64,000 bases of DNA from Methanomassiliicoccales archaeon LGM-RCC1 (GTDB lineage Archaea > Thermoplasmatota > Thermoplasmata > Methanomassiliicoccales > Methanomethylophilaceae), in assembly GCA_030168575.1 (NCBI GenBank), contig CP115555.1:1-64000 (forward strand), given 5' to 3'. This document shows, piece after piece, positions 10,083-61,227 of the stretch. Made by a program: the position numbers and the translations under genes. The notes beneath the pieces are model-generated. The model was not told where the DNA came from and ran no database searches. It saw nothing but the letters and a program-made list of their open reading frames with translations. Numbering within the stretch: position 1 is the first letter of the stretch; each line of letters opens with the position of its first letter.

Positions 10083-10155
10083 GCAGCTGTGATCTAGCTG
10101 GTTAGGATCTGAGCCTTCCAAGCTCATTGCCCGGGTTCGAATCCCGGCGGCTGCA
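10083..10155 (+). tRNA. tRNA-Gly (anticodon TCC)
   Basis: 73 nt that fold as a complete cloverleaf. The acceptor GCAGCTG pairs with CGGCTGC (one T-G pair), the D-stem ATCT with GGAT, and the anticodon stem TGAGC with GCTCA around the loop CTTCCAA. The T-stem CCGGG pairs with CCCGG around TTCGAAT, and the discriminator is A. The anticodon TCC reads Gly codons. No intron and no encoded CCA. The 3' end is the presumed integration site of the island downstream. Confidence 0.95.
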
Positions 10156-10160
10156 CTCAT
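10146..10160 (+). repeat. left attachment-site repeat (within tRNA-Gly 3' end)
   Basis: 15 nt identical to 22360-22374; this is the presumed attL core. Confidence 0.6.
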
Positions 10161-10168
10161 TTTATTCC

Positions 10169-10573
10169 ATCAAAAGTGACTTGAGCGCAGGCTATAACCT
10201 ATAAATTTTGGAAACAAAAAACATAGCTAACGCTAAAGATAAGTCAAAAAAAGAACAGTTTGTATAGTTCAGACCCTTCTCACAGCCCAGACATCATGTT
10301 ATTCTACGATTATACGCATGAAACGCAAATCTCGGTACCGCTTTTCGATTATCGTACGGTACTGCGTTATGTTATCTCTCGATCGACATCCGGAAGGATG
10401 TGATCACGATGGGTTCAACGATTATTTCCCGTACGATTTCTGGCGAAGTGTGATCCGATCTAGTATCGTATTTGAATGAAGAATCACAAAGTATGTTATT
10501 ATCCCTATCGTCAATCTGCCCGTAGGGCAGCTTATGAACGGGTCAATTTATTGACCCGTGAGTCACTTTTGAT
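10169..10573. repeat. MITE-like element with 13-bp terminal inverted repeats
   Basis: ATCAAAAGTGACT at 10169-10181 is the exact reverse complement of 10561-10573. The 405 nt enclosed contain no convincing gene. Inside are a hairpin CTGCCC-GTA-GGGCAG near 10517-10531 and a 22-nt perfect palindrome at 10538-10559. This looks like a small non-autonomous element sitting just after the tRNA. Its ends share 11 of 14 positions with the inverted repeats of the insertion sequence at 18559-19980, which might mobilise it. The rest of the gap, 10574-10750, shows nothing I can assign. Confidence 0.45.
10538..10559. repeat. 22-nt perfect palindrome
   Basis: The arm ACGGGTCAAT is followed by TT and its exact complement ATTGACCCGT. 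It could be an operator, a terminator hairpin or a transposon-internal structure. Confidence 0.5.
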
Positions 10574-10750
10574 TGGGCGGTGTTACTCTATCCAGCGTTC
10601 CGAGTGGTGCATCCCTTTCGCACTCACCACTTTTCCAACTTAAGATAAAATAATGCAATCAAAAAGCTGAAGCATAGCAGTACAAATGCATTATGGCCGG
10701 GAACCCTTCGCTAAAGGATTGAATTCAACTCAGATTAATGGATCAGAGAT

Positions 10751-10975
10751 TCAATTCTTCTTTCTGGATTCGGCGAAATCCTTGATCGCCGCATCGAACT
10801 CATCGGGAGTCATGTCATCGAAGATCTGACGTCTCCACTTGGTATAATCGGAGTTACCGGACTTGACCGCCGCCAGGAACATCTCTGTGTTGACTATCCC
10901 GAACCTCTCCACAAGGCAATCCATGCCGAGCCTGTACATCTCGCTCATGGTGTATACTTCGTTGGTGTCGCTCAT
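10751..10975 (-). CDS. small acidic protein, probable antitoxin partner of PIN toxin
   Basis: 74 residues, acidic and helical, with MSDTNEVYTMSEMYRLGMD at the start and a KK tail. It starts inside the stop of the PIN gene (ATGA overlap), so the two are translationally coupled. A small protein coupled to a PIN ribonuclease is typical of a type II toxin-antitoxin unit, although here the small gene lies second. No DNA-binding domain is obvious. The call rests on context, not on homology I can name. Confidence 0.55.
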   Translation of the reverse strand: MSDTNEVYTMSEMYRLGMDCLVERFGIVNTEMFLAAVKSGNSDYTKWRRQIFDDMTPDEFDAAIKDFAESRKKN

Positions 10976-11415
10976 GGCTGCTCCTCCTCTATAGATAAGA
11001 AGTCTAAGGGGGATATAACATTAATCCTGTTGTCCTTCAGTTTCAGGATGCGGTCGTCCGTGGTGATGAGGTAATCGCATCCGGCATGGATTGCGCAGGC
11101 CACATGGGAAGCATCGGCTGTCTTGAGGCCTTCGGCCATGATCTGGTTTCTCAACGGAACTAGGGTGCTGAAAATGTGCTCATCCACATACACCGAGCGA
11201 TTGGCATCCATGAAATGCTGTATCTTGCCGGCGGACGTCTCGTCCCTGTTGCGGCTGTTCTCGTAATCGAGAACGATGGAGGTTACGAGTCTGTGCTTCC
11301 CCTGAGCTATTTCTTTCTGGATCTGCATCTTGGAAAGGGCTTCCAGATGGATGCGGAGCTGGGAATGGTCGTCGTAAGGGCGATTGTAAGCACAGCTGTC
11401 AAGATAGATGAGCAA
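10972..11415 (-). CDS. PIN-domain ribonuclease, VapC-like toxin
   Basis: 147 residues. PIN domains are Mg-dependent RNases that often cleave tRNA or rRNA when the antitoxin is absent. The acidic residues are at the expected places: LDSCAYNRPYDD at the N-terminus, DYENSRNRDE, KTADASHVACAI and DYLITTDDRIL. DSCAYNRP is characteristic of a PIN subgroup common in gut anaerobes. It is probably a stability or defence module of the island. The 67 nt before the gene are AT-rich and suit a promoter. Confidence 0.8.
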   Translation of the reverse strand: MLIYLDSCAYNRPYDDHSQLRIHLEALSKMQIQKEIAQGKHRLVTSIVLDYENSRNRDETSAGKIQHFMDANRSVYVDEHIFSTLVPLRNQIMAEGLKTADASHVACAIHAGCDYLITTDDRILKLKDNRINVISPLDFLSIEEEQP

Positions 11416-11482
11416 GCAATATCACTGATGACATGATATATTGTATCGATTTAAGCATAACCCGCGGATGCAATCGATTTCG

Positions 11483-12099
11483 TCATCGAACGAGTGCATC
11501 CACTCCGTAGGCAGCTTTCTGCCTTGAGATGAAGTAATCATCCGGTTCGGCGAACGGGCCGTCGACCACTATATCCGCGTTCTGCGGCATGAACTCTAGA
11601 GTTGACACTGCGAATGGTACCATGGACGCAAAGTCCGACAGGTTGAGGTCGGCTTCCTTGAGCTTGTCCTTGCATCTCAGGTATGCAGTGATGGCTACGT
11701 CGTAGTCGTGGGCGAAGCATACGACGGGATTGTCCTGGATGTATCTGACGTAATTGCCGATGGGATCGTTGAATCCCTCGTATGTCCTGAGGATCTAGCC
11801 GCATTCGGAGCAGACCCTCATCTTGTATTGCCTGTGATAGCCTAGGAGTCTCATCCTGTTCCTTGCGATTCTTCCCCACTGTCTGATGCGTATCTTCCTG
11901 ACCAGACGGTCCATGGTCCAGTCCTCCCAGTCGATCTTGGAGAGGTCCCCTGCTCTTCGTCCTTTCCCGTAGTATTCGTCGTCGTAATCCTGCTCGGAAT
12001 ACTTCGCTTTGGGGGATTTGATCCCGGGGATGAGATAATCGAGGATGTCCAGATCACAATCCACAGTGTCCGGGTCTACCTCGGTGATGCCGAGGCCAA
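11483..12099 (-). pseudogene. 5'-truncated copy of the HUH Rep-like gene, with in-frame TAG
   Basis: The translation matches the C-terminal half of the intact gene at 20783-22270 almost residue for residue, from GLGITEVDPDTVD onward to a slightly different tail. The N-terminal half with the HUH motif is absent, since the homology stops abruptly near 12099. The codon for Gln in CTECGQILR of the intact copy is TAG here (11795-11797, a C-to-T change), and the frame then continues open to TGA at 11483. Loss of the catalytic half makes it a remnant, whether or not TAG is read. The DNA next to the break encodes a Lys-rich tail on the other strand (about 12092-12136) that I cannot assign. Confidence 0.75.
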
Positions 12100-12225
12100 G
12101 AAGAAGATCGCTAAGTTGAAGAAGAAGATGAAGTGAGGAGAATCCCTTCATCCCTCTTGAAACCGCTTTCACCAGTCTTTACAATTTCTGCATCCGCATC
12201 ATACGTGCAACATCTTTCGATTCAC

Positions 12226-12519
12226 TCATCTTTCGAGAATCTTCAACGATTCGGACATCCTCTGGCCGATCTCCTTCCCTTTCTCGGTGAGATGGAGAAC
12301 ATACTGCAGAGTGGGGTCCGCGGTCATCTCCTTGGTGAGAAGGCCCTCATCGACCAGTTCGTCGACCCTCTTCTTGATGGTGCTGTAGTCCTGTGTGAGG
12401 ACCTTCAGGTCGTTCATGTTGGTCCTTTCGCTGTCGTAGACGATTGCCAATATGTCGACGACGAGAGTCCTGGAGAGTATCGAGCGCTTCGTCGTTGCGG
12501 ATTTGTCCATATCCCTCAT
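12226..12519 (-). CDS. small winged-helix transcription regulator
   Basis: 97 residues, or 94 from the ATG at 12510. The sequence SRTLVVDILAIVYDSE, then LKVLTQDYSTIKKRVDELVDEGLL as recognition helix and turn, then a TADPTLQYVLHLTEKGKEIG wing, fits the one-domain archaeal wHTH regulators (MarR/PadR-like). A TATA-like GTTATATC lies about 23 nt before the second ATG, so that start may be leaderless. The target is unknown; genes of the island are the obvious candidates. Confidence 0.7.
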   Translation of the reverse strand: MRDMDKSATTKRSILSRTLVVDILAIVYDSERTNMNDLKVLTQDYSTIKKRVDELVDEGLLTKEMTADPTLQYVLHLTEKGKEIGQRMSESLKILER

Positions 12520-12682
12520 GGAGGTGATATAACCCTATGTAGTCTAAGTGCTCTTTAATGTGAATTCAAATGATAGTGTGAAAACACACCTTAAAATACG
12601 TGAGGAACCCTTGTGAGGCACGTAGCGGACGCGAGAGATTACCGAGAGGATATCCTCCCCTTGCGTTGCACCGGAGGGACAG

Positions 12683-12874
12683 ATGACAGATACCTTTGAA
12701 CCGGTTCCAGACAAAGTCAGGAGATATGTCGAATCCAGAGTATCGGCTCCGAAGGAGAGGACAGTCCTGGACATCCTTGAGGAAAAGCACATGCTGACCA
12801 TCATCGAATATATCGACAGTCATCGTCGCTCTGAGGTTCAACAGGAACTGAACGAGGTAACAACCACAAGATAA
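12683..12874 (+). CDS. short protein resembling a truncated wHTH regulator
   Basis: 63 residues. A strong ribosome site (CGGAGGGACAG) precedes ATG 12683 and a hairpin terminator follows the stop, so the unit looks transcribed. ILEEKHMLTIIEYIDSHRR resembles the first helices of archaeal one-domain wHTH regulators, but the protein ends (EVTTTR) where the recognition helix would continue. It is either a decayed regulator or a genuine small protein. Confidence 0.45.
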   Translation: MTDTFEPVPDKVRRYVESRVSAPKERTVLDILEEKHMLTIIEYIDSHRRSEVQQELNEVTTTR

Positions 12875-12881
12875 ACACTTT

Positions 12882-12901
12882 GGCCCCTCGTGAGAGGGGC
12901 C
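12882..12901 (+). terminator. hairpin terminator
   Basis: GGCCCCTC-GTGA-GAGGGGCC forms a perfect 8-bp stem 8 nt after the stop of the small gene and is followed by TATCATTTCT. Confidence 0.6.
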
Positions 12902-13119
12902 TATCATTTCTCGGTATGTGATGAATGTGTTTGATGATCGGAACCGCCAGATCTGTCCGCACATCCAAAAGAATGTCAATCTCGTTCTTGACGACCAGAA
13001 TTCTACCTATTCCGACTGCCAGTTGGTAAGAGGCCTCGTCATAGCTGTCATTTGTTCATCCAGAGGACAACGTCTGCTGGGCAGGTGTATGAATTGATAC
13101 TTTCGAAGGGACAGTTTGT

Positions 13120-13902
13120 ATGACCGATATCAAGACCAACAGACCCTGCCCTAACAAGGGCTGCCCATAGTATGGGGAGATCGGAAGGAACGTAGTATCC
13201 AGAGGCACGAGGGTGAACAAGAACGGCGACACCGTTAGAAGATACTCGTGCACCTGCTGCGGACTTAACTTCAACGACCGTACCGGTACGAGGTACGAAG
13301 GCATCCATATCACCAAGGAGGAGTATGATTCCATCGTAGAATCTCTTTCTCAAGGAAGTACCTGCAGAGAGGCAGCTGTCAGTGTATCCGATAGGACAGT
13401 CAGGAACTATGCGAAGGCCGCAGGTATCGTAAAAAGAGCTGATAGAATGGTCCAGAGGCCTATCGACGGCAGGTTCCCCCGGATCGATACATTGAGGTCC
13501 AGATATTACGGACCTGAGGTTTGTTCCAAACCGCTCAGGGAAGGACTCGACATCCCACCGGACGAGATCGACAGGACATTTCAAAGATTCGAATCCGTTC
13601 TGATATCTCTTGGGTTCACAAGACCCGAATCCAGATTACTTTCTCTTCTTGTAGCATACGATGGCCTGACAAGCATGGACATAAGCAATCTCACAAGGAT
13701 GTCATCCTCTACTATCGTAAAGGCCTCCGAATCACTCGCTTCGATGGGTCAGGTCGAGATATATGTAGGCAAATCGGTCGACGGAAGGAAACCTTACAGA
13801 TCCTTCGCACTCAAGGTGGATCCGGATCATATGTTGGATGAAATCCGGTCCAAATTGCTAGATTCCGTCGATTTCATAGATGACCTATCAGAGCATCTAT
13901 GA
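13120..13902 (+). CDS. zinc-ribbon plus wHTH regulator with in-frame TAG at codon 17
   Basis: Read through TAG (13168-13170), this is 260 residues from ATG 13120. The N-terminus is an insertion-sequence type zinc ribbon: CPNKGCP, then TAG, then YGEIGRNVVSRGT, and later RRYSCTCCGLNFNDRTGTRY. In the known family the first Cys pair sits exactly here and one residue separates CP from YG, so TAG stands for that residue. A HTH segment (STCREAAVSVSDRTVRNYAK) and a C-terminal TrmB/MarR-like winged helix (MDISNLTRMSSSTIVKAS) follow. A product starting at GTG 13213 would lack half the zinc site. It is probably a DNA-binding regulator built from a transposase N-terminus. Confidence 0.6.
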
Positions 13903-14052
13903 ACCGTATTCTTCCGTCATCTGTTACTTTTTTTCCAATCGTTATATTGGTTCTCCCGAATACAGGGTCAGCGGACTTACTTTTGTCTTGTCACCAAATG
14001 ACAGTGCAAAGAACCTATGTCCTAAGTCTTCGCATATTCAACGGTGATACGG

Positions 14053-14772
14053 ATGAATTCAAGGAATGGTCTCGACGATTATGCAGCTCGCGGATTCCCA
14101 AGCTATCCAATGGGTCCAGGCCAGTGTGCTCAGGTGTCGGGTCAAATCCTCGATGACCATGCAGGCAAAGGCCGCAGCAGGATCGCCAGATTCATCCCGA
14201 CCATGCTGCTGATCGTCCTGGTCATATTCGCCGGATACTACATCTACGACCACAACGACGGGTTCGGTTTCGATACCGAACTGAAGGTGGTCGTATCCGG
14301 GTCCATGGACGGGGAACCCCGGGATCAATACGATATCAAGTCAATCCCATTGGGAAGCCTCGTCTGGATCAAAAAGGTACCCTCGGACAGCGATACATTC
14401 TATTCATCCCTCCGCGAAGGGGATGTGCTTACGTTCAACTACAGGCATCCGATATCGGGAGAGAACATGGTCGTCACCCACAGGATAATATCCATTGAGC
14501 AGGGCAACGGCGGATTCACATACACTTTGAAGGGCGATTCCATCGCCGACGATCCGACCAACGGATCGGTGCAGAAGGTGACGAGCTATAGCGGCGACAT
14601 CATCGGAAAGGTATCCGGTGTATCCCCCTGGCTTGGACAGCTGGTGATATTCATGTCCACGCTGGAGGGAAGGATCTGTCTGATAGGCATACCGTGCGCT
14701 ATAATCGTGCTCGCCGAGTTCAACAGCATCAGGAAGAACATGGCATCGCTCAGAAGGGGTGATGCCGAATGA
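14053..14772 (+). CDS. signal peptidase I, SipW/archaeal type
   Basis: 239 residues from ATG 14053, chosen because GGTGATACGG lies directly before it; an in-frame GTG at 14044 is the alternative. The N-terminal cytoplasmic tail precedes one membrane helix (FIPTMLLIVLVIFAGYYIY). The peptidase core has the catalytic Ser in VVVSGSMDG and the His in MVVTHRIISI, so it is of the Ser-His ER/archaeal/SipW type with no Lys general base. A second hydrophobic segment lies near the C-terminus. It is coupled to the next gene by an ATGA overlap, and a protein with a SipW-type signal peptide is the third gene, so it is probably its dedicated peptidase. Confidence 0.85.
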   Translation: MNSRNGLDDYAARGFPSYPMGPGQCAQVSGQILDDHAGKGRSRIARFIPTMLLIVLVIFAGYYIYDHNDGFGFDTELKVVVSGSMDGEPRDQYDIKSIPLGSLVWIKKVPSDSDTFYSSLREGDVLTFNYRHPISGENMVVTHRIISIEQGNGGFTYTLKGDSIADDPTNGSVQKVTSYSGDIIGKVSGVSPWLGQLVIFMSTLEGRICLIGIPCAIIVLAEFNSIRKNMASLRRGDAE

Positions 14773-16514
14773 TCTTCAGGGATGAGGACGGGGACATCAG
14801 GTTGGTACCGGTCATATCGGTACTGGCGGTCATATTGGTCGTAGCGGTGTTGCTCCTGTACCCGCACCCTTACGATGTGGACCACGAGGGGCAAGGCACG
14901 GTAACGTCTGAGGGCTGCCACAGCATATCATATCTGAGCATGCTGCTGGACGGCCAACCGGAGATCGGATATGAACCTGCCGAGGGATGGGAAGGTACGA
15001 TGTACCTCAACGGCACGGAGGTAGAGGGCAACCCATACAGGCTGTCCATCGGATTGTTCGATTTCTCATGCGACAGGATCCACGTGGAGTTCAAGGAGCT
15101 GGAGCCGGAACTGGAAGTGGACATCGAGATCCAGGTAGATGTCATATCGTCCACGGCATTGGGAGCAGCACCCGACGACGGAGTGACCTTCTCGTCGGTC
15201 TCATCCGACCACTGGGAGCAGCCTTTCACGGTCGATCCCATGGGGAAGGTCCTGGTCAAAAGGGGAGGCTCCCTCACCATTACCATAGATTGCAAGCAGG
15301 AAGGCTGTTGGATCAGCTACATCCAAATCGACGGGGTGTCCAGGGAGATCACCGACCACTCCCACATGGAAGTGGTCGTGGAGGACATCCAGAAGGACAT
15401 CCTGGTGGAGATCGGAATAGAAAGGTACCCGATGATAACGGCCTCGGCAGACAGTGACGCATACATCTCGCCCGAGGGATATGTTCTGGTGATCCCGGGG
15501 AAGGACCAGACATTCGTCTACGGCTCGAAGATCGGACACACAGTGTCCAAAGTGGTCGTGGACGGATACGAGGTCGAGCCCACAGGAGCATACACCTTCG
15601 AGAACGTGAGAGAGGACCATACCATAGACGTCTTCATTGACATGAGGTGTCATGTGGTCACGGCCAACTCCTCATACGGGGGGACGATAACACCATCTGG
15701 AAGGATACTCGTCCAGGACGGGAACTCGATCACCTTCACCCTCACCCCGATGGCAGGATACGTACTGTCGGGAATCACCGTGGACGGCAAGACAGTGAGA
15801 TCCTACGGATTGACCTTCACGCTATCCGATATAAGGGATGACCACGCGGTGTACGCAACGTTCAGGCACATAGAGCCCCCTACGCCCACTTTCTACAGGC
15901 TTACTGTGGACCAGCCGGCCCACGGTACCATCACGCCCTCATCGGGCCTTGTGCGCGAAGGGAGCACCGTCAACGTCAACGTGATCCCGGACGACGGATA
16001 CTACGTCGCAGGGATATACGTCGACGGCACCAAGGTGACGACATCGTCCACGTACTCCTTCAGGATGTACGGGGACCACACCGTATCGGCGGAGCTCAAG
16101 GAGACCACGATGTCCGTCTACGTGACGGAGAGGAACGGCGAGCCGATCATACCTGTGAGGCTGTCTGAGTACGTCTTCTCGATGGACAACATCCAGCCCG
16201 GAGACGTGCAGAGCATCAAGATGAAGATAACCGTGGATTCTAAGATGCCGTTGGAGCTGTCGATAAAGCTGAAGGATACAACCCTCTCCGAGGACCTTCA
16301 GAAGCAGCTGATGGTCATTCTGGATAGCGATTACACGGAGTATTCCGGCACTTTATGGAATATCTCCGAGGTCGGACTCGGATTCGGGGAGATCGGCGCC
16401 GAGAAGGACGTCTATCTATCGATCGAGTTCATGAATCTGTACGATAACAACAAGGTCATGGGCCAGTCAGGAACAGTCACATTGTCGGTATCGGCATACC
16501 AAGACACTGAATGA
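14769..16514 (+). CDS. membrane-anchored surface protein with InlB-B-like repeats
   Basis: 581 residues. One N-terminal membrane helix (VPVISVLAVILVVAVLLLY) anchors an extracellular part. From about residue 215 three or four beta-rich repeats of about 70 residues resemble the Bacterial repeat/InlB B-repeat family, for example VDQPAHGTITPSSGLVREGS and IPDDGYYVAGIYVDGTKV. The C-terminal 140 residues (YVTERNGEPIIPVRLSEYVF and on) are a separate domain that I do not recognise. It lies between the peptidase and the TasA-like gene in one operon, so it may assemble with or anchor that protein. Confidence 0.75.
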   Translation: MIFRDEDGDIRLVPVISVLAVILVVAVLLLYPHPYDVDHEGQGTVTSEGCHSISYLSMLLDGQPEIGYEPAEGWEGTMYLNGTEVEGNPYRLSIGLFDFSCDRIHVEFKELEPELEVDIEIQVDVISSTALGAAPDDGVTFSSVSSDHWEQPFTVDPMGKVLVKRGGSLTITIDCKQEGCWISYIQIDGVSREITDHSHMEVVVEDIQKDILVEIGIERYPMITASADSDAYISPEGYVLVIPGKDQTFVYGSKIGHTVSKVVVDGYEVEPTGAYTFENVREDHTIDVFIDMRCHVVTANSSYGGTITPSGRILVQDGNSITFTLTPMAGYVLSGITVDGKTVRSYGLTFTLSDIRDDHAVYATFRHIEPPTPTFYRLTVDQPAHGTITPSSGLVREGSTVNVNVIPDDGYYVAGIYVDGTKVTTSSTYSFRMYGDHTVSAELKETTMSVYVTERNGEPIIPVRLSEYVFSMDNIQPGDVQSIKMKITVDSKMPLELSIKLKDTTLSEDLQKQLMVILDSDYTEYSGTLWNISEVGLGFGEIGAEKDVYLSIEFMNLYDNNKVMGQSGTVTLSVSAYQDTE

Positions 16515-16545
16515 AATCATTTCAACAATTCAAAGAGGAAATCAA

Positions 16546-18513
16546 ATGAAATCAGAACACAAGGCAATTCTGGCATCCCTGCTGGTAGTGGCTCTCTGCC
16601 TCTCTGCAGTAGGCGGTGTAACATATTCGTGGTTCTCCGACACGGAGACAGGGGAGATCAAGACATCATCGGCCGTCATCGACATCGACGGCGTCTACTC
16701 CGACCCCCTGGTCACTCTCACCAACAGCCCTGCGACAGAATACACATCCGATGTCTACGGCACGGCTGCATCTTTCAACGATGACGAACTCGACATTACC
16801 GATCTCCAAGCCAACAGAACGATAACATCCGTCTACACCATCACGAACAAATCTACAGTCAATTCGTTGTACAGGCTCTACATATCCGTACCCGATGTGA
16901 GCGACAGCCTTCTGAACACAGCGATCAAATTCTATGTCTCAGGTACCATCAACGGACACACCCTTGACGGCACCACGCCCATTGCATTCAACAACCACCT
17001 CGGATACGCATTCGGTGACGCAACCAGCGGAATCCTGCTGCCCAAGAACACATCGACGGGCGGATTCGACCAGTACGCATTGACCATCAAGGTAGTGACC
17101 AACGAAGGGCTCGTACAGGGAGTCCTCCCTAGCGAATTTACCATCAGCATGGTCTCCGAGGCATATCAGGTAGACTACCAGTACACCGAGCCCGTATTCA
17201 TGTCCGTCGGGACCAACGCAGATACCGCAACGGTATCCGGAACCAATGCGACTACATTCTCCGCCAGCACCGTTCCCAAAGCGGCTGGTGCATCATCCGC
17301 ACTCAGCAACCTCGGTGCGGTCAGCGTGACATTCCCCGAGAACGCCATGAGGGCCATCGATGCTTCCGCAACAGGCACCGTCACCCTGAACGTCGACGTC
17401 ACGGATGCCGTCAGCACAGTTTCATCTGCTACATTGGAACTCAGTCTGACCGACTCCCAGACCGGACCCATCACGACATTCGGCGGAGAGAAGATCACCG
17501 TTACCGTCGTCGTACCTTACACAGGACCTCTCGACATCACATACAACGGAACGCTAGACGAACAGCCCGAGGTACTGAGCATCGTCGACAACGGCGACGG
17601 AACATCCACGGTCACATTCCAGACGGACCACTTCTCCGGATTCGACCTCATCGAGCTGGACAAGGTCCAGGCAAAGGATCTCTCCACAGGACAGTACCAG
17701 ATGAGCTTCCTCGATGCGCTGGCAAGCGATTCGACGGCGGGTCACACCCTGAAACTCATCAATGACTTCTCCGTTTCCGCACCCATCCTCGTTCCCCACA
17801 CCGTCACCATCGAAGGCGACGGAAAGACCATCACCACTTCCGCCACAAGGGGTGTGCGTGTCAATGGTGACAACGTGGATCTGACAATCAAGGATTTCAA
17901 CCTCGTATGCGGATCTAACACCGAGAGAGCATTGCAGATCGACAACAACCGTTCCAACATCAACATCGCCGTGTACAACTGCGACTTCGGAAAGGTCTCA
18001 TACTACTCTATCAACATCTGCAACGGAATCACGGATGCGAACATCTACATCGAGAACTCTAGATTCGCCGGATGGGGTGCAGTCAACATCTGGTCCGCCA
18101 ACAACACCTTCAAGGCGGTCGGATCCACATTCATCGGACTCAACGATAAGGGATACAACGCTGAGGGATGGAACAACTTCGGTACTGTCGTCCTTGAAGC
18201 GGACACTACCAGCCAGACCGCAATGGCGGCCCATGGGAACACCGTGACCTTCGAGGACTGCGAGATCGTGGCCAAGACCATAGGACAAGGCAACACGCAG
18301 ACATGCATCATATTCAACTACTGCAACCTCACGGTGCCCGTCGGCGCACACGAGAACGTGGTCAAACTCACGGACTGTGTCCTTGACTACAACGAATCCG
18401 AGAAGACATACGAGTACATCGACAACGGTTCTTACAACTACCTTGAGATCAACGGGGAGGTAAAGGTCGACAATACCCCTCTCGAAGTTCAGGAAGAACC
18501 CGTCGAGCCGTGA
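16546..18513 (+). CDS. TasA/camelysin-like secreted protein with SipW-type signal peptide
   Basis: 655 residues. The N-terminus LLVVALCLSAVGGVTYSWFS followed by DTETGE matches the SipW-dependent signal peptide class of TasA/CalY proteins, where cleavage is followed by a beta-sandwich that can form matrix fibres. The first 230 residues carry the TasA-like domain (YTITNKSTVNSLYRLYISVP). A middle region follows, then a C-terminal Asn-rich, parallel beta-helix-like part (NICNGITDANIYIENSRFAG). The ribosome site GAGGAAATCAA precedes the ATG. It probably forms a surface or biofilm structure. Homology is clear at the signal peptide and weaker in the body. Confidence 0.75.
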   Translation: MKSEHKAILASLLVVALCLSAVGGVTYSWFSDTETGEIKTSSAVIDIDGVYSDPLVTLTNSPATEYTSDVYGTAASFNDDELDITDLQANRTITSVYTITNKSTVNSLYRLYISVPDVSDSLLNTAIKFYVSGTINGHTLDGTTPIAFNNHLGYAFGDATSGILLPKNTSTGGFDQYALTIKVVTNEGLVQGVLPSEFTISMVSEAYQVDYQYTEPVFMSVGTNADTATVSGTNATTFSASTVPKAAGASSALSNLGAVSVTFPENAMRAIDASATGTVTLNVDVTDAVSTVSSATLELSLTDSQTGPITTFGGEKITVTVVVPYTGPLDITYNGTLDEQPEVLSIVDNGDGTSTVTFQTDHFSGFDLIELDKVQAKDLSTGQYQMSFLDALASDSTAGHTLKLINDFSVSAPILVPHTVTIEGDGKTITTSATRGVRVNGDNVDLTIKDFNLVCGSNTERALQIDNNRSNINIAVYNCDFGKVSYYSINICNGITDANIYIENSRFAGWGAVNIWSANNTFKAVGSTFIGLNDKGYNAEGWNNFGTVVLEADTTSQTAMAAHGNTVTFEDCEIVAKTIGQGNTQTCIIFNYCNLTVPVGAHENVVKLTDCVLDYNESEKTYEYIDNGSYNYLEINGEVKVDNTPLEVQEEPVEP

Positions 18514-18531
18514 TACTGTACCAACACCCAC

Positions 18532-18548
18532 GGGGGTCTGTGACCCCC
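18532..18548 (+). terminator. GC-rich hairpin after surface operon
   Basis: GGGGGTC-TGT-GACCCCC is a perfect 7-bp stem 19 nt after the stop. The DNA downstream was separated by the insertion sequence 10 nt later; TGACCCCCTCAA here has its exact reverse complement at 20080-20091 on the far side. Confidence 0.45.
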
Positions 18549-18617
18549 TCAAACGATTTCATTAAAAGTGGCCTCTTGCTTCGTTTGAAGTGAAGTAAAA
18601 CAAAGAGGCAAGAGGCC

Positions 18618-19658
18618 ATGAAATTCATAGGAATTGATGTACATAAACGCATCTTCACAGCTTGTGTTTTGGATGAGAATGAGAAGGTCGTCGGAGAGAT
18701 TATCGACGCAGAAACTTCTGAGAAAGGACTCGATGAATTCATCGAGCAGTATCCTCCTGAGGATTGTCGTATCGTTTTTGAGAACCTCGGAAGAGCCCAT
18801 TTCGTGTTCCATTATCTTTGGGATAGGGGGTACGCGGTCGATGTAGCACATACTGGACACGGTTCGATGCAGGAAATTGCCAATTGCAATTTCAAGACCG
18901 ATCGCATTGACGCATACAAGCTGGCGCTTGTTTGCAAGGACATCTGGTCAGGAAGGAAGTTCATCAGGCGTGCGCATCTGTCGAAAGACGATGTGATGAG
19001 GATGAAGGGTCTCGTTAGGATCCATAACGAATGTGCGAACATCAGGGACGAGATGTATCTCCGCATTCTTGAATATATGAGCCTTCACAACATCCCGGAA
19101 CATCCGAGATACAAGGATGTCAAAGGACAGGGGTACAGCCAGTATCTTCTGGATATGAAGGATCCTGCGCTTTCAGCGATGGTGAATATGATGTGTTCTG
19201 CTATCTAGCAAGTGAATGTGGCCAATGAGGAAATCAAGAGATATGCAAGGAAATCCGAGGATGCCAGACTGCTGATGACCATCAAGGGTGTTTCGGCTTT
19301 GACAGCAGTCACGGTCGTGACTGCCATCGACGGCATCTACAGATTCGAGACCCCGGAGAAATTGGTATCCTTCTTCGGTCTGGCCGTTCCTCACAAGGAG
19401 TCCGCTCACAAGAAGCAGAAGGTGGGCGTGATCACCAAGGAAGGCGATCCGCTGGTCAGGAAGTATCTGGCCAATGTCGTAATACAGCAGAACATGTGGT
19501 GCAAGGACAGCGATCTTTCGCAATTCTTTAGGAAGAAAGCAGAATCCATGCCACATTGGAAAGCCGTAACGGCGGCGATGAGGAAGCTCACCTCCATCAT
19601 CTGGGCGATGCTGACTAAGAAGCAACCTTACAAGTTCCACCCCATGATGCAATCTTGA
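18618..19658 (+). CDS. IS110/IS1111-family transposase with in-frame TAG at codon 197
   Basis: 346 residues if TAG (19206-19208) is read through. The N-terminal RuvC-like DEDD domain has the Asp in FIGIDVHKR, a Glu in FENLGRAH and KTDRIDAYKLA. The C-terminal transposase-20 domain has GVSALTAVTVVTAIDG, LVSFFGLAVPHKESAHKK (with the candidate catalytic Ser) and GDPLVRKYLANVV. TAG falls in the linker between the two domains and the frame continues unchanged. Without read-through neither half would be active. In the family this enzyme recombines DNA guided by a bridge (seek) RNA made from the element's noncoding part. Confidence 0.8.
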
Positions 19659-19959
19659 TGAAGCTCGATTTAGGCTCCGGGTACCGGAGCCAGTCCAATG
19701 AGGACAGATCGTATTCTGTCCTGAGATGAGGGAATCGGGAGGTCCGTCCGACGTGACCGCGAAGAGGTTTTGCAGGCATAGACCGCGTTCATCAAACTTA
19801 GGCAGTTCGGACAGGACCAAGGTCGACATCGTTGTGCGGCAATGACCGCGGGGTAGGGAAAATGGCATTCTGAAGACTCATCTACGGAAGGTTTACGATC
19901 GTAGTTCGAAAAACCTTCGCATCAGCGAAAGCTTTTTCTCACAACCAGAGGATGTAATC
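19659..19959 (+). ncRNA. candidate bridge/seek RNA region of the IS1111-like element
   Basis: The roughly 300 nt between the transposase stop and the right inverted repeat have no gene but clear structure. GGCTCCGG-GTA-CCGGAGCC lies at 19673-19691, and AGGACAG paired with CTGTCCT around 8 nt follows shortly after. IS1111 elements carry their guide RNA in this position. The exact RNA ends and the target- and donor-binding loops cannot be fixed by eye. Confidence 0.45.
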
Positions 19960-20176
19960 GCAAGAGGCCACTTTTAATGAGGGAAACCCCTTACAATCCT
20001 TCTGAAAAACGATCCCGCCCCCACTTTGATGATACACCCTATTCCCCGCCTTATGTATAGGGCCTGTACAGGGTGCTTATTGAGGGGGTCAAAAACACCC
20101 TAGCCAGATGTTTCCGGAAACCATCGATTTCCGCGGAAACCTTCCGGAACCTTTCCGCGGTCGATCCCGGGCATGA

Positions 20177-20240
20177 GCATTAAATAGAGTCCACGTGAAC
20201 TCATAGAGCAGCAAGGGTACCACAGGGGCCCGACTTGCTG
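20177..20240 (+). ncRNA. structured repeat A (putative small RNA)
   Basis: It starts with GCATTAAATAGAGTCCA, shared exactly with repeat B 104 nt downstream. A 7-bp stem CAGCAAG/CTTGCTG (20209-20215 with 20234-20240) then closes a loop containing CCACAGGGG. TTAAATA could serve as a TATA box for a short transcript. The strand is a guess. Confidence 0.35.
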
Positions 20241-20280
20241 TTTCCTATTTCCAATTTACCTCAGGGCCCCGCCTTCTCAA

Positions 20281-20349
20281 GCATTAAATAGAGTCCAGCC
20301 GGAGTATGGTCCGGCGGAGCTGCCATCACAGGGGGGTCGGTACTCCGCC
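20281..20349 (+). ncRNA. structured repeat B (putative small RNA)
   Basis: It has the same 17-nt leader as repeat A. It then has a 6-bp hairpin GCCGGA/TCCGGC and a 7-bp stem GGCGGAG/CTCCGCC (20313-20319 with 20343-20349), which closes a loop containing TCACAGGGG. The stem sequence differs from repeat A while the loop core is kept, which suggests selection on structure. The rest of 19981-20782 shows no convincing gene. Confidence 0.35.
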
Positions 20350-20537
20350 ACCAGCGTTAAAGCCGGCCCCTCTACATTCTCAAAGGAAGTCCAACAGGGT
20401 CGTCTGTTCTCCCATACTCGGAATCATAGATTCTGACTTAGTCCGATGTGTCGAAGTCAGGAATCATCATTGATGGGAACTGTAAGAAAAGATTTCTCAG
20501 AACATGGTTTTTTACCACTTCATGCATAATAACGCCC

Positions 20538-20726
20538 ATGTTGCCCAACTCCGAGGACGCCACCACCGAATTCATCAGATCCGTATGCATCACGGATTAG
20601 CAGCGGACTATCCCCATAGCGATATTGAGCGACTGGAACCTCAGGCTTCGCTCAGTGGGTATAACGAGGGATGCCATATTCGTCATGGACGGTAAGATGT
20701 ACAGATTCGGCCTCGGAGTCCGATGA
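20538..20726 (+). other. weak ORF with in-frame TAG, possibly a decayed gene
   Basis: From ATG 20538 to TGA 20724 the frame encodes 61 residues plus one TAG at 20598-20600. Its composition is protein-like (for example AIFVMDGKMYRFGLGVR), but it has no ribosome site and no family I recognise. Upstream in the same frame two further TAG codons but no TAA or TGA occur back to about 20400. It could equally be chance. Confidence 0.15.
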
Positions 20727-20782
20727 GAGAACGAACCTCCCCGATCGTGCAGAACAGGTAAACTGTAAGAACGAGAGAGAGC

Positions 20783-22270
20783 TTACGCTAGGATATCCGC
20801 TGAAGAATCGTTGCCGTATGCTGAGTTCTGTCTTCTTATGAAGTATTCGTCCGGTTCGGCGAACGGGCCGTCGACCACTATATCCGCGTTCTGCGGCATG
20901 AATTCCAGAGTTGACACTGCGAATGGTACGATGGACGCAAAGTCCGATAGGCTGAGGTCGGCTTCCTTGAGCTTGTCCTTGTATCTCAGGTATGCAGTGA
21001 TCGCGACATCGTAATCGTGGGCGAAGCATACGACGGGATTATCCTGGATGTACCTGACGTAATTGCCGACAGGATCGTTGAATCCCTCGTATGTCCTGAG
21101 GATCTGACCGCATTCGGTGCAGACCCTCATCTTGTATTGCCTGTGGTATCCGAGGAGCCTCATCCTGTTCCTTGCGATTCCTCCCCACTGTCTGATGCGT
21201 ATCTTCCTGACGAGACGGTCCATGGTCCAATCTTCCCAGTCGATCTTGGAGAGGTCCCCTGCCCTGCGGCCTTTGCCATAGTATTCGTCGTCGTAGTCCT
21301 GCTCGGAGTACTTCGCTTTGGGGGATTTTATTCCGGGAATGAGAAAATCGAGGATGTCCAGGTCCCAATCCACAGTGTCCGGGTCGACCTCGGTGATGCC
21401 GAGGCCCATGTGCGTGTACAGATAAGCGGCGGTCTGGGAGATGGAACGGATCCTCTGATGGGGATGGACCTTCTTGATGATCCATCCCGGATTCTCCCTC
21501 CTGAACCTGTCGGTATCGAGATGGCCGTAGCAGATGTTATGGAAATGAGGGGAGAACACCCATCTGTCCTTCATCCTCCACGGGTGGAAGATGGTGAAAC
21601 CGGAAAGGGCGCCGATGTCCTTCAGAGCGGCTTCGATATACTGGACGAGCTGCTGATATTCATCGGTGGTCTGCATGAGAACCTTGACCAGCTCCTGGGG
21701 CGGCGATATCACCCAATGGCCGACGTCACCGACGTCGATGCCTTTCTTTTTGCAAAGGGCCTTGAAGGCGAGGAGCTTCTTCTCCTGTTGCTTGCCGTTC
21801 CTGAGGGCGGTGTCGTTCATGCATTCCGGACAGTGGAGGGACCAGCAGTGGATCCTCTTGCCCTTGATATAATGCTCCGGATGCCCGGGGCACTGACTGT
21901 AGACGAGCTCTCCTGTCTTGGTGCGGATGAAACCGCAATGCTTCTCCTTCGGACGGTTCGCGTCGTGTCCGGGCATGCACCAATGGATGTACTCATGATA
22001 CTCGGGTCTGAAGAAGTGGACGTTGCCTTTGGAGTCGTAGAACGACCTCTTTCCCTCCTGAACCTGATTGTAGACCTCCTGTAACGGCTTGCCTATGTCG
22101 ATCGCAAGTTTAAGGTACTCTATGGCAGGTCCGTTCCGGACCAGCTTCTCTGCTTGTTGGGTAAAAGGTTTGGAGGGCTTTCGCCCCGAAGATGTTTGAA
22201 GGACTTCGGCAGTGAAGGATGAAGATAACGCGAAATGCATCCCGAGGGATACAACTAGGATATCAAACAA
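20783..22270 (-). CDS. HUH-endonuclease Rep-like replication initiator
   Basis: 495 residues from TTG 22270, or 485 from ATG 22240; neither has a clear ribosome site. An N-terminal Cys/His region (CPGHPEHYIKG, HCWSLHCPECMND) is followed by HWVISPPQELV, FTIFHPWRMKDRWV and the HUH signature SPHFHNICYG. A candidate catalytic Tyr lies in TAAYLYTHMG. This order matches the rolling-circle Rep proteins of haloarchaeal plasmids and pleomorphic viruses (SPP, FHPYR, PHFH, YLLSHAG). The C-terminal half has a CTECG zinc-like knuckle. It is probably the replication protein of the integrated element; an IS91/IS200-like transposase is the alternative. It ends in TAA. A truncated copy lies at 11483-12099. 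Confidence 0.6.
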   Translation of the reverse strand: MFDILVVSLGMHFALSSSFTAEVLQTSSGRKPSKPFTQQAEKLVRNGPAIEYLKLAIDIGKPLQEVYNQVQEGKRSFYDSKGNVHFFRPEYHEYIHWCMPGHDANRPKEKHCGFIRTKTGELVYSQCPGHPEHYIKGKRIHCWSLHCPECMNDTALRNGKQQEKKLLAFKALCKKKGIDVGDVGHWVISPPQELVKVLMQTTDEYQQLVQYIEAALKDIGALSGFTIFHPWRMKDRWVFSPHFHNICYGHLDTDRFRRENPGWIIKKVHPHQRIRSISQTAAYLYTHMGLGITEVDPDTVDWDLDILDFLIPGIKSPKAKYSEQDYDDEYYGKGRRAGDLSKIDWEDWTMDRLVRKIRIRQWGGIARNRMRLLGYHRQYKMRVCTECGQILRTYEGFNDPVGNYVRYIQDNPVVCFAHDYDVAITAYLRYKDKLKEADLSLSDFASIVPFAVSTLEFMPQNADIVVDGPFAEPDEYFIRRQNSAYGNDSSADILA

Positions 22271-22359
22271 GTGTTACAGCGGTTTGGGAATCAAAACCCG
22301 AAAAAACTGAAAAATTGAGCAATCTATAGATGATGCTGGCCATCCGGGGGGTGAATCCT

Positions 22360-22374
22360 GGCGGCTGCACTCAT
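22360..22374 (+). repeat. right attachment-site repeat (tRNA-Gly 3' end fragment)
   Basis: GGCGGCTGCACTCAT is identical to 10146-10160. The T-arm upstream is only partly matched (GTGAATCCT), so no functional tRNA can form here. It lies in a 200-nt gap (22271-22470) that otherwise shows nothing. Confidence 0.6.
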
Positions 22375-22470
22375 CTTTCTTCTTCCAGATGTGTTTTTGA
22401 GTGCGACCGCACGGATTGCCACTTTCCCGGACCGGATTAGTCCAATTACGACTGTTCTCCGACGGTACCC

Positions 22471-29467: not shown

Positions 29468-31279
29468 TCAATCATCGTTCTCGAACTGGGAGTGATACAG
29501 GTCTGCGTACACCCCGCCCCTGCTCAGCAGCTCATAGTGCGTTCCCTTCTCGGCGATGTTTCCGTCCTTCATGACCAGGATGATGTCCGCGTTGCGTACG
29601 GTGGACAGCCTGTGGGCTATGACGAAGCATGTCCTCCCGTGCATCATCGAATCGATGGCATTCTGGATGACGACCTCGGTACGGGTGTCGACCGAACTGG
29701 TCGCCTCGTCGAGTATCAGCATCGGGGAACGGTCCACAAGGGCGCGGGCGATGCATATCTGCTGTCTCTGACCTTCCGACAGCGAGCTCTTAGAACCTAT
29801 CCTGGTCTCCAATCCGTCGGGAAGGGTACAGATGAACTGATCCAAACCAACCTTCCTACACGCCTCCATGACATCGTCCTCGGTCGCTTCCGAGCAGTAG
29901 GCAATGTTTTCCCTTATCGTGCCCTCGAACAGCCAAGTGTCCTGAAGGACCATGCAGAACAGATCGTGCACATCACTGCGTGTCATATCCTTAACGGACA
30001 CACCGTCAACCAGGATGTCCCCGCTGCTGGGCTCGTAGAACCTCATCAGGAGGTTGACGGTCGTGGTCTTCCCCGCGCCGGTGGCACCGACTATGGCTAC
30101 CTTCTGGCCAGGCTCTATGACAGCAGAGAACCCCTTGATCGTATCCACGCCGTCGAAGTAACCGAAATGAACATCCCTGAACTCCACTTTGCCCCTGATC
30201 TCCTTGGGCACTGTTCCCGCCGTGTCGGCAGCCATCTCTTCCGAGTTCAGGAACTCCTCTATCCTCTCCGCACCTGCTCCGGCGGCCTGCATGTTGCCTA
30301 GGGAATGAGCTATCATGTCCAGGGGACCCATGAACATCTTGACGTACAGTATGAATGCGACGACCACGCCTATGGTGATCTCCCCCTCGATGACCATGAC
30401 CGAACCGACTATGCACACGGCCACATAGCCCAGATTACCGAAGAACTGCATTATGGCGGGAAGCAGACCCATGGTGACCTCGGAACGGAAACCGCTGGCC
30501 CTCAGAGATTCGTTAATGCCATCGAAGGTTTCCTTGTTCTTCTCCGAAGCCGAATAAGCCAGCACCATATCGTGGGTGCTGTACAGCTCGGAGATCAATC
30601 CGTACATCTTGCCGATGTTCTTCTGCTGGTTGCGGTAGTACTTCTGAGTGTACTTGACTATGAGGGCGCTGACGATCATGCCCCCGGAGGCTGCGATGAT
30701 GGAGACGAAAGCGAGCTTCAGGTCGGTGACCAGCATCATGAACAGACACACGAAGAACAGGATTATCCCGTGTGCGAAGATGGGGAGACTCCTGGCCAAT
30801 GCGGAACCGACGGTGTCGGCATCGTTGGTGAATCTGCTCATCACATCGCCCTTCCTGCAGTTATCATAGAAGCGCAGCGGAAGGCGTTCCATCTTTCTCT
30901 CCAGATCCGACCTCATGTTCTTTGCCACGGTCTGCGCTATACCGGCCATCCAATACTGGCGGGCATACATGGCCAGAGAGCCGGAGAGGTAAAGGAGCAA
31001 CGCGATAAGACCATTGACGGAAACGCTGTCCAGATCTATCGAACCGGTGTACAGGCCGTCTGATATCAGGTCGGTTATGTTCCCGACGAATTCAGGAGCT
31101 ATGGCGGTGAGGGCCGACTCCAGGAACACCATGAACATGGCCAGGAAGAACAGCCCTCTGGCCTCGTAGACGTACCCGAGGATCATCCTCCAGGCATTCC
31201 TCATCGATTTGGGCGTATCCTTACGGACGCCCCCCTTCTCCGAGTACCCTCCTGTGAGCAACGGGACGCGTCCGCTCAT
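29468..31279 (-). CDS. ABC exporter half-transporter (ATPase plus permease), subunit 2
   Basis: 603 residues: an N-terminal six-helix type IV exporter domain and a C-terminal ATPase. The ATPase is canonical: Walker A GATGAGKTTT, signature LSEGQRQQICIARAL, Walker B LILDEATSSVD with the catalytic Glu, and the H-loop FVIAHRLST. Its start overlaps the stop of the next half-transporter (ATGA), and together they form a heterodimer. Such pairs export lipids, drugs or peptides; the substrate here is unknown. The 3' end meets the VIT-like gene tail to tail. Confidence 0.92.
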   Translation of the reverse strand: MSGRVPLLTGGYSEKGGVRKDTPKSMRNAWRMILGYVYEARGLFFLAMFMVFLESALTAIAPEFVGNITDLISDGLYTGSIDLDSVSVNGLIALLLYLSGSLAMYARQYWMAGIAQTVAKNMRSDLERKMERLPLRFYDNCRKGDVMSRFTNDADTVGSALARSLPIFAHGIILFFVCLFMMLVTDLKLAFVSIIAASGGMIVSALIVKYTQKYYRNQQKNIGKMYGLISELYSTHDMVLAYSASEKNKETFDGINESLRASGFRSEVTMGLLPAIMQFFGNLGYVAVCIVGSVMVIEGEITIGVVVAFILYVKMFMGPLDMIAHSLGNMQAAGAGAERIEEFLNSEEMAADTAGTVPKEIRGKVEFRDVHFGYFDGVDTIKGFSAVIEPGQKVAIVGATGAGKTTTVNLLMRFYEPSSGDILVDGVSVKDMTRSDVHDLFCMVLQDTWLFEGTIRENIAYCSEATEDDVMEACRKVGLDQFICTLPDGLETRIGSKSSLSEGQRQQICIARALVDRSPMLILDEATSSVDTRTEVVIQNAIDSMMHGRTCFVIAHRLSTVRNADIILVMKDGNIAEKGTHYELLSRGGVYADLYHSQFENDD

Positions 31280-33027
31280 AACTCATCACCTGTTCTCTGG
31301 GATTCAGCGATCTCCCTGTAGAGGGCGCAGCCGTCAAGCAGCTCCTCGTGGGTACCCTGACCTACGATCCGTCCCTTATCCAGGACGATGATCCTATCCG
31401 CACCACGGGCAGTGCCGATCCTCTGTGTAACAAGGACCACCGTGGAACCTTCGGTACGTCTCTTGAGCCTGCGCCTCACCTCCAGATCGGTACGGAAATC
31501 TATGGCTGAGAAACAGTCGTCGAAGACGTAGATCTCCGGACCTTTGCAAATGGCCCTCGCGATAGCGACCCTCTGCTTCTGTCCTCCTGAGATGTTCCTT
31601 CCCTCCTCGGACAGGTTAATGCCCAATCCTCCCGAGTCCTCGATGAAATCCTTAATACAGGCGGTTTCCAGAGCTGACCATATGTCATCATCCGTGCGGT
31701 TCTCGGATCCCTTGCCATAATTGACATTGTCCCTTACGGATCCGGACAGGATGGTGGGCCTCTGAGAGACGTACCCTATCTTGGAACGCAGTGAATCCAG
31801 ATCGTACTCCTTCACATCGATTCCGTCGACTAGGACCTTTCCTTCATTGCAATCGTAGAATCTCGGTATGAGGTTCATAAGCGATGTCTTGCCGCATCCC
31901 GTTGCACCGATCACCGCCACCGTCTCACCGGGATTCACATCGAAACTGATTCCGCTGAGGACATCCGCTGATGACCCCATGTAACGGAAGCTCACATCCC
32001 TGAAGGAAATGGATCCTTTCCTATCGCCATCGGTCACCGTACCTCCGACGATCGTCAGATCGGTATCCAAGACCTCGAAGATACGGTCGAGGGATGCCTG
32101 GGCCCTCGGGAACACATTGAATATCTGCACCATTGTACGGAACCCGTTCAGGGCCAGTATGGCATATGTCGAGAACACGATCATCTCCGAGAACAGCTCA
32201 AGGCGGAGGGGCTCCGAGGATGTCCCGGCTATTATGAATGCTCCCAACCAGTAGATGGTCATGGCCAGGCCGTTCCTTATGAAACCGTTCATGGGCACGT
32301 TGAAACCCATGATCCTAGCTGCACGGATGTGGTTCTGTGTCAGAGCATCGTTGGCAGCTTCGAACTTGTCCCTCTCGAGATCGTCCGCATTGTACGCCCT
32401 GATGACCCTCTGTCCGGTCAGCATCTCCATGGTCACGGCATTGATCCCGTCGTTCAGTTTCTGCACCTTCCTGTACAGAGGTGCTGTGAGGCGGAGTATG
32501 GTGATGACCAGCAGGATCATCGCGAATATGGATATCACCGTGGCCACGGTCCAGGTCATATCGCTCTGACTTATCCTGAGGATCGCCCATATGGAGATGA
32601 TCGGCGCCCTGATGAGCGATTCCAATGCGACTCCGATGAAATCCTGTACCTGCTTGACATCATTGGTGGAACGTGTGATCAGACTGTAAGTGGAGATCCT
32701 GTCGATCTCCGACAGGGAGAACTTCTGGACGTGATCGAACTCGGCCTGACGGATGGTCTTAGCGGTCGATGATGATATCCATCCCACGGTACTGCTGACA
32801 AGCAACCCGATGATCAACGTGGCAACGGCACAACCTACCATGGCGAACGACTTCTCAAGGACCTCCTCCGACGTCCCGTGAGATGTGATGACATCCGTGA
32901 TGGCCGCCATGTAGTTTGGTATCTCCAATTCGAACCATACCTGCAGGACTATCATCAGGACCACTAGAACAGAAAGGGCCCATTCCGTCCTGCGGAAGAA
33001 TCTGACGAAGGAGAATATACCGCTCAA
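31276..33027 (-). CDS. ABC exporter half-transporter, subunit 1 (degenerate ATP site)
   Basis: 583 residues with the same domain order as its partner. Walker A is GATGCGKTSL and the signature ISGGQKQRVAIARAI. Walker B reads YVFDDCFSAID, so the catalytic Glu is Asp, and the H-loop is Gln in VLVTQRIGT. Heterodimeric exporters of the TM287/288 type have one such degenerate site. It is the first gene of the two-gene unit. No metal-locus operator was seen upstream, so it may not belong to that regulon. Confidence 0.92.
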   Translation of the reverse strand: MSGIFSFVRFFRRTEWALSVLVVLMIVLQVWFELEIPNYMAAITDVITSHGTSEEVLEKSFAMVGCAVATLIIGLLVSSTVGWISSSTAKTIRQAEFDHVQKFSLSEIDRISTYSLITRSTNDVKQVQDFIGVALESLIRAPIISIWAILRISQSDMTWTVATVISIFAMILLVITILRLTAPLYRKVQKLNDGINAVTMEMLTGQRVIRAYNADDLERDKFEAANDALTQNHIRAARIMGFNVPMNGFIRNGLAMTIYWLGAFIIAGTSSEPLRLELFSEMIVFSTYAILALNGFRTMVQIFNVFPRAQASLDRIFEVLDTDLTIVGGTVTDGDRKGSISFRDVSFRYMGSSADVLSGISFDVNPGETVAVIGATGCGKTSLMNLIPRFYDCNEGKVLVDGIDVKEYDLDSLRSKIGYVSQRPTILSGSVRDNVNYGKGSENRTDDDIWSALETACIKDFIEDSGGLGINLSEEGRNISGGQKQRVAIARAICKGPEIYVFDDCFSAIDFRTDLEVRRRLKRRTEGSTVVLVTQRIGTARGADRIIVLDKGRIVGQGTHEELLDGCALYREIAESQRTGDEL

Positions 33028-33126
33028 ACTACCGTCAACAACCTAAGACCTCCATGATGTTAAATCCTCCTCCGTTCGACAAAAGAGACCCTTATCGGTA
33101 AATACGGATAAACCCATCCGAACCTT

Positions 33127-33594
33127 ATGACAGATGTCAAGTCCGAGGAGTTCAGGAGGTTCATCCTGGAGAACAGGGAGATAATAGAGAGGATTCTGAA
33201 GGATGATCTGAAGGAGTCCAAGCAGAAGACCGAGGAGTTCGTCGATGAGAACCTCGACCGCGCTAAGGCAAAAGCCATGGACATCAGCGACGGCATCTTC
33301 AAGATCGTCGGGGACGACGATGTCCAAAAGCATTTCATCACCGGATGTCTGGAATTCCTTCATTTCTTCGAAGCAGTAATCAACGCGGCACCGCTATCGC
33401 CCGAGGCGAGGGAATTCGTAGATAAAGTGGAGGAGACCCGCGACAAGACCGTGCGCAACGTGGTCAAAACCGGTGCGGACGACCTCGTTCAGAACATCCC
33501 CGTCAAGGAAGTCAAGCCCAGGAAGGCCCCCGCCAAGAAGGCGAAGCCCAAGGCTGAGAGCATCAAGATAAACGACGTCAAGAAGAAGGCATAA
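33127..33594 (+). CDS. uncharacterised coiled-coil protein with Lys-rich tail
   Basis: 155 residues. The N-terminal 70 residues are strongly helical and charged (RRFILENREIIERILKDDLK). A hydrophobic helical patch (FITGCLEFLHFFEAVINAAP) follows, and the end is rich in Lys, Pro and Ala (PRKAPAKKAKPKAE), like nucleic-acid-binding tails. No membrane helix, signal or known domain. It is divergent from the ABC exporter unit and tail to tail with the isochorismatase-like gene. Function unknown. Confidence 0.65.
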   Translation: MTDVKSEEFRRFILENREIIERILKDDLKESKQKTEEFVDENLDRAKAKAMDISDGIFKIVGDDDVQKHFITGCLEFLHFFEAVINAAPLSPEAREFVDKVEETRDKTVRNVVKTGADDLVQNIPVKEVKPRKAPAKKAKPKAESIKINDVKKKA

Positions 33595-61162: not shown

Positions 61163-61227
61163 TCCAATCTTTTATGAGCATTACCCTAATATACGACGAC
61201 TCCTATTGTCAGTTGACTTAGCAACTG

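Follow-up and report, generated by a model that had tools for sequence, protein, structure and literature searches.

An in-frame TAG codon, predicted to encode pyrrolysine, in the zinc ribbon of a putative island-borne regulator of a Methanomassiliicoccales archaeon

The first 64,000 nucleotides of contig CP115555.1 of Methanomassiliicoccales archaeon LGM-RCC1 (hereafter, the window) include a gene whose reading frame continues through a TAG codon that interrupts a zinc ribbon. This gene probably encodes a DNA-binding regulator that is made full length, with predicted insertion of pyrrolysine at residue 17, that travels as cargo of an integrated island, and whose TAG site is under selection. 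The tRNA-Pyl/PylS system of the organism would translate this TAG as pyrrolysine, joining the first Cys pair to the remainder of the zinc ribbon and yielding a protein of 260 residues. The protein would thereby combine, without a catalytic domain, an IS1-transposase-type zinc ribbon and helix-turn-helix (HTH) with a winged helix of MarR/TrmB type. Coordinates of the features discussed below are compiled in Table 1.

Table 1. Coordinates of the regulator gene, its island, and associated features (positions in the window unless a locus is named).
Feature	Position	Strand	Remarks
Regulator gene	13120..13902	+	260 aa when the TAG is decoded; zinc ribbon of IS1/InsA type, then helix-turn-helix and a winged helix of MarR/TrmB (MreA-like) type
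Zinc-ribbon Cys pair 1 (Cys10, Cys15)	13147..13164	+	Upstream of the TAG
In-frame TAG, predicted pyrrolysine, residue 17	13168..13170	+	Between Cys15-Pro16 and Tyr18
Alternative start GTG, codon 32	13213..13215	+	Sole in-frame start codon from the TAG to codon 110
Zinc-ribbon Cys pair 2 (Cys44, Cys47)	13249..13260	+	
Integrated island bearing the regulator	10138..22382		12,214 bp repeat to repeat (12.2-kb)
tRNA-Gly(TCC)	10083..10156	+	Its 3' end marks the left island border; left copy of the exact 15-bp core spans 10146-10160
15-bp core, right copy: GGCGGCTGCACTCAT	22360..22374	+	
SipW/archaeal-type signal peptidase I	14044..14772	+	Next gene downstream of the regulator; below curated cut-offs
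Surface protein, InlB B-repeat-type domains	14769..16514	+	
Surface protein, SipW-dependent-type signal	16546..18513	+	Match is weak, falling slightly under the cut-off
IS110 transposase with its own in-frame TAG	18618..19658	+	Flanked by 21-bp inverted repeats
tRNA-Pyl(CTA)	L048 6440-6510		Followed by ORFs reading as PylS, PylB, PylC, and PylD

Zinc ribbon and winged helix of the regulator

The frame opens with ATG at 13120, closes with TGA at 13900-13902, and contains the TAG as its single internal in-frame stop; translated across this codon it reads MTDIKTNRPCPNKGCP-TAG-YGEIG... A search of the whole 1,664,211-base, single-contig genome recovered one copy of the gene. A profile of ten IS1-type rows (A2 rows 3-12), from which both TAG-bearing proteins were left out, scored 74.7 bits against the whole frame, 60.0 bits from the residue after the TAG, and 52.2 bits from GTG 13213. 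The upstream residues contribute 14.7 bits to this score, and when they were shuffled, 74.7 bits was attained once in 1000 trials, which argues that the upstream Cys pair is not a product of chance; a chance upstream frame was ruled out on the basis of this gain and these shuffles.

The profile aligns through the TAG without a gap, and the TAG column corresponds to one profile residue, at which the ten IS1-type rows carry N, H, H, Y, K, R, K, M, K, and Y. The ungapped alignment indicates that the TAG replaces a single residue, as had been suggested in an earlier note made from the sequence alone, and the varied residues in the column show the position to be variable. Two further proposals of that note, that the first Cys pair lies before the TAG and that read-through is needed to make a four-Cys zinc site, are borne out by the positions of the two pairs on either side of the codon. 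Termination at the TAG would leave a peptide of 16 residues. It is very unlikely that the TAG is a real stop, that translation of the working protein begins at GTG 13213 so that only half of the zinc ribbon is made, and that the upstream 16 codons are a relic. From this GTG, an uninterrupted 229-aa frame covers the HTH and winged helix, but it loses the first Cys pair, the residues upstream match the IS1-type family profile, and the genome decodes TAG elsewhere.

The regulator resembles InsA and the IS1-family N-terminal protein (NF033558, NF050000) in having a CPN-x2-C zinc ribbon and, after it, an HTH, both of which are present, although the NCBIfam IS1 match is below cut-off. It differs from InsA/IS1 in lacking the InsB catalytic part and in having a C-terminal winged helix. 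Consistent with the absence of a catalytic transposase domain anticipated by the earlier note, no Pfam or NCBIfam match to a catalytic (DDE-type) domain was detected within the 260 aa.

The same note had read the C-terminal half as a winged helix, and both profile matches and a structural model agree. Matches to TrmB (PF01978; 22.8 bits, cut-off 25.6) and MreA (NF053756; 30.7 bits, cut-off 100) span residues about 156-248 and fall below their curated cut-offs in this copy, whereas the homolog from another genome of the genus (G055) passes MarR_2 at 29.5 bits versus a cut-off of 27. MreA differs in being a 139-residue protein, and the available part of PMC4158304 mentions no zinc ribbon in it. 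An AlphaFold2 model, with Lys substituted at residue 17, has a mean pLDDT of 83.3 and a pTM of 0.53, and its C-terminal winged helix is confident. Foldseek returned 0 matches to this model at E <= 0.001; the best E was 0.002 and the list comprised mostly MarR, TFE-alpha, and TrmBL2 chains. A sequence search against solved structures likewise gave weak matches only, with MarR on top.

In two other genomes (G011, L123 4754-5629; G016, L124 542-1399), an IS1-type zinc ribbon is joined to a half that looks MarR-like, as judged by eye only. Each is encoded near a tRNA-Thr gene and has no TAG in the zinc-ribbon column; they possibly represent a separate fusion event.

Decoding of TAG in the genome

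The organism carries tRNA-Pyl(CUA), pylS, and pyrrolysine synthesis genes, of which the pylB/C/D-like genes were assigned from position and translation rather than with a profile. Its methylamine and pyrrolysine genes fit a gut-type, probably Methanomethylophilus-like methanogen. Two mtmB-like genes with a TAG are present at the tRNA-Pyl locus (L048), and two dimethylamine methyltransferase genes carry one TAG apiece. A CobN-like gene (window 48718-52446) has two TAGs within one Pfam domain match and is split by the standard code. An aconitase gene (L106 6211-9033, minus strand; G000:C1:1206211-1209033) has a TAG where 19 of the 19 relatives aligned, out of 29 other matches, have Lys. Since the 99%-identical copy from the same species also has Lys at this position, the aconitase TAG is, as judged from these alignments, a fresh Lys-to-TAG change (AAG to TAG) within the species. 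The presence of TAG inside CobN, aconitase, and the IS110 transposase of the island suggests that it is an ordinary sense codon whose use looks routine in this genome.

Two crude counts over 460 kb placed TAG at the ends of 1 of 307 or 5 of 302 genes, these being based on crude codon-bias gene calls from a non-random sample that included the window and the locus chosen for its pyl genes. A similarly crude tally over 103,880 codons put the number of internal TAGs at about 14. The earlier note had further proposed that the protein may be tuned by TAG decoding, and this could not be substantiated: the rarity of TAG at gene ends and its occurrence inside CobN, aconitase, and IS110 give it the look of a routine codon. 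Given that TAG is decoded generally in the genome, read-through at residue 17 would need no special signal. No RNA structure downstream of the TAG was common to the two copies of the gene (folding z of -1.96 in this genome and +1.17 in G055), and a downstream RNA insertion signal was dropped from consideration.

General use of TAG as a sense codon recalls the 'Pyl code' archaea that Kivenson et al. are said to have described in 2025, in which all TAG codons reportedly encode pyrrolysine. The gene-end counts are close to the 1.6% reported for 'Ca. Methanomethylophilus alvus' in the available part of PMC4153887, which also predicts 16 pyrrolysine proteins besides methyltransferases (section 12, Table 7). 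The two organisms appear to share an order, and in both, TAG is rare at gene ends and is scattered in frame among genes, one of the proteins listed for 'Ca. M. alvus' being transcription-factor-like. In contrast, Table 7 of that source includes no IS1-type zinc-ribbon regulator, and retention of a TAG site across divergent homologs is not described in the part available. According to the portion of PMC3639795 at hand, TAG also occurs in mobile-element and DNA-binding proteins of Methanosarcina acetivorans, namely transposases and a TetR-family regulator, but these belong to other families and the two transposase clusters are of low sequence diversity.

Two ABC transporter frames in the window (31276-33363, minus strand, and 61123-62094) continue in the 5' direction through a TAG. 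The 5' extension of the former has no coding bias, and its TAG may therefore lie outside the gene.

Conservation of the TAG site

Searches of the order (147 genomes) and of the class (400 genomes) gave a single full-length homolog other than the gene itself, that in G055 (G055:C3:70613-71410), which shares 39% identity with the regulator. A search of genome contigs led to this same G055 record. The TAG codons of the two genes align with one another, ungapped, and in-frame sequence is conserved on both sides. The earlier note had reasoned that homologs starting after the TAG position and lacking the first Cys pair would count against its interpretation; the one full-length homolog keeps both the pair and the TAG. 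By comparison, the four residues after the TAG all differ (YGEI versus AATD in G055), and identical residues that could be encoded in more than one way share the codon in 40 of 91 cases, where 36.0 are expected by chance. This chance-level sharing suggests that synonymous sites carry no memory of common ancestry.

Other TAGs in the genome behave differently. Both CobN TAGs are kept in the 99%-identical copy of a genome of the same species (G054), but homologs of 55% identity or less do not have them and nearly all have no TAG; the four that carry other TAGs share no TAG column with this CobN when aligned. The aconitase TAG is not kept even within the species. The TAG column of IS110 is kept at 88% identity in G055, whereas a 41% relative lacks the TAG. 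Independent gain at the same column is improbable at the crude density of internal TAGs given above. Together with retention at 39% identity, this favors descent with selection, as opposed to a passing mutation, as the source of the shared TAG, a reading of the sequences that is drawn from one divergent pair.

It is possible, albeit doubtful, that the TAG is a neutral passenger, an AAG- or TAC-type codon that drifted to TAG, is harmless under decoding, and has no special role. Such changes do occur, as evinced by the aconitase and by an island gene (20783-22270) in whose truncated duplicate a Gln CAG of the parent is replaced by TAG; moreover, the TAG column is variable among IS1-type relatives, and neutral gain of TAG is reported in the available part of PMC3639795. 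Nevertheless, a passenger would not be expected to persist in a 39%-identical homolog in which synonymous codons match only at chance level, and the CobN TAGs are not kept in homologs of 55% identity or less.

In the G055 copy, the next start codon is 58 codons past the TAG, beyond the zinc ribbon, which weighs further against a real stop in a gene that retains the first Cys pair. This observation would suit a role for the TAG as a gate, whereby scarcity of charged tRNA-Pyl leads to termination after 16 residues and production of the regulator and its surface cassette is restricted to times when pyrrolysine, and hence methylamine metabolism, is available. A stop at codon 17 would indeed abolish the product, and the TAG is kept in G055, but the rarity of TAG at gene ends and its presence inside housekeeping aconitase and CobN suggest constant, efficient decoding, and the two copies have no downstream structure in common. 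We consider such a gate unlikely.

The start of the G055 gene is less clear-cut. There is no in-frame ATG before the Cys, the first start being GTG 10491 (L115), about 40 codons upstream; a run of ten G (L115 about 10540-10560) lies between this GTG and the Cys, and an ATG at 10499 is out of frame. The contig is from a metagenome assembly with a coverage of 2.97, and the start region may reflect an assembly error, a decaying gene, or a slippage switch at the ten-G run. Homologs with the winged helix only were found twice in G065 and once in G066, and tblastn detected no SipW-like gene in the stretches taken around them. Searches of viral contigs and of plasmids recovered no homologs.

The tRNA-Gly island and neighboring genes

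The regulator is carried on an island with the features of a tRNA-targeting element: the tRNA 3' end is directly repeated at each border, and a relative has the unoccupied site. The G054 genome lacks the island: its alignment to the window breaks off at 10167 and resumes at 22353, the two aligned stretches share 30 bases of G054, and an intact tRNA-Gly is joined to the right flank. No integrase was recognized among the part of the island ORFs that was scanned. The cargo comprises a PIN-domain gene, a winged-helix gene, the regulator, the signal peptidase, two surface proteins, IS110, and a 495-aa protein with its truncated duplicate. Perfect 21-bp inverted repeats surround IS110 (18559-18579 and 19960-19980), and an identical second copy at G000:C1:1563086-1564123 keeps the TAG. 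The 495-aa protein and its duplicate (window 20783-22270, minus strand, and 11483-12172) have no family match above cut-off; a PHFHN stretch in the former recalls HUH replication proteins. Since the gene sits on an island that is missing from a genome of the same species, the description of the protein in the earlier note as domesticated, if taken to mean that the host has settled the gene as its own, could not be upheld.

This setting, beside IS110 and a truncated duplicate gene, could also point to a decaying transposase/regulator fusion that is not expressed. Codon bias in the part downstream of the TAG is weak (12.4 bits over 243 codons), which may mean that the gene arrived recently or is poorly expressed, and the start of the G055 copy is problematic. 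However, neither copy has a TAA, TGA, or frameshift from the first Cys to the end, and at 39% identity the two copies still share the Cys residues, HTH, and winged helix, as purifying selection predicts. Decay is thus improbable, and we retain the interpretation of an intact regulator with pyrrolysine at residue 17.

The next gene downstream has below-cut-off matches to signal peptidase families NF046067 (1.3e-14) and TIGR02228 (2.2e-12), and the putative SipW-dependent signal of the second surface protein scores 18.1 bits to TIGR04088 (cut-off 19). The G055 homolog also adjoins surface-protein genes and the gene of a SipW-like peptidase, which has 35% identity over 166 residues (E 8e-19) to the product of 14044-14772 and a below-cut-off match to TIGR02228 (1.8e-9). 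The G055 cassette continues after the peptidase with four small proteins whose N-terminal hydrophobic segments terminate in a recurrent GYAYQ/GFAYQ motif, and it includes one protein with a Listeria-Bacteroides repeat; TIGR04088 had no match in four G055 neighbor proteins. The regulator and peptidase genes are on the same strand in this genome but are divergent in G055. A scan with TIGR02228 identified two matches in each genome and missed the G055 neighbor, indicating at least three such genes in G055; because such genes are few per genome, the shared neighborhood is notable. Based on this neighborhood in two genomes, the regulator most likely controls the adjacent SipW-like peptidase and surface-protein genes. 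A sigma-70 promoter/terminator scan was uninformative, as the host is an archaeon.

The reactive imine ring of pyrrolysine handles amines in methylamine methyltransferases. A highly speculative extension, to which we assign the lowest likelihood of those discussed, is that pyrrolysine at the zinc knuckle is itself functional, such that the regulator would sense an amine directly, control surface proteins, and be bound to hosts that use pyrrolysine. If true, this would represent a pyrrolysine-based sensor over surface proteins, restricted to such hosts.

Many in-frame TAGs outside of methylamine methyltransferases are thought to be neutral passengers. A pyrrolysine protein with an in-frame TAG is of a known kind, and the deep conservation of the TAG site is the interesting part. 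Because the zinc ribbon is incomplete unless the TAG is decoded, and because the TAG has outlasted both the randomization of synonymous sites and change in the neighboring residues, the regulator is a candidate for a selected pyrrolysine, or for selected control by TAG, in a regulatory protein. As TAG-bearing cargo on a mobile island, its expression could be confined to hosts that use pyrrolysine.
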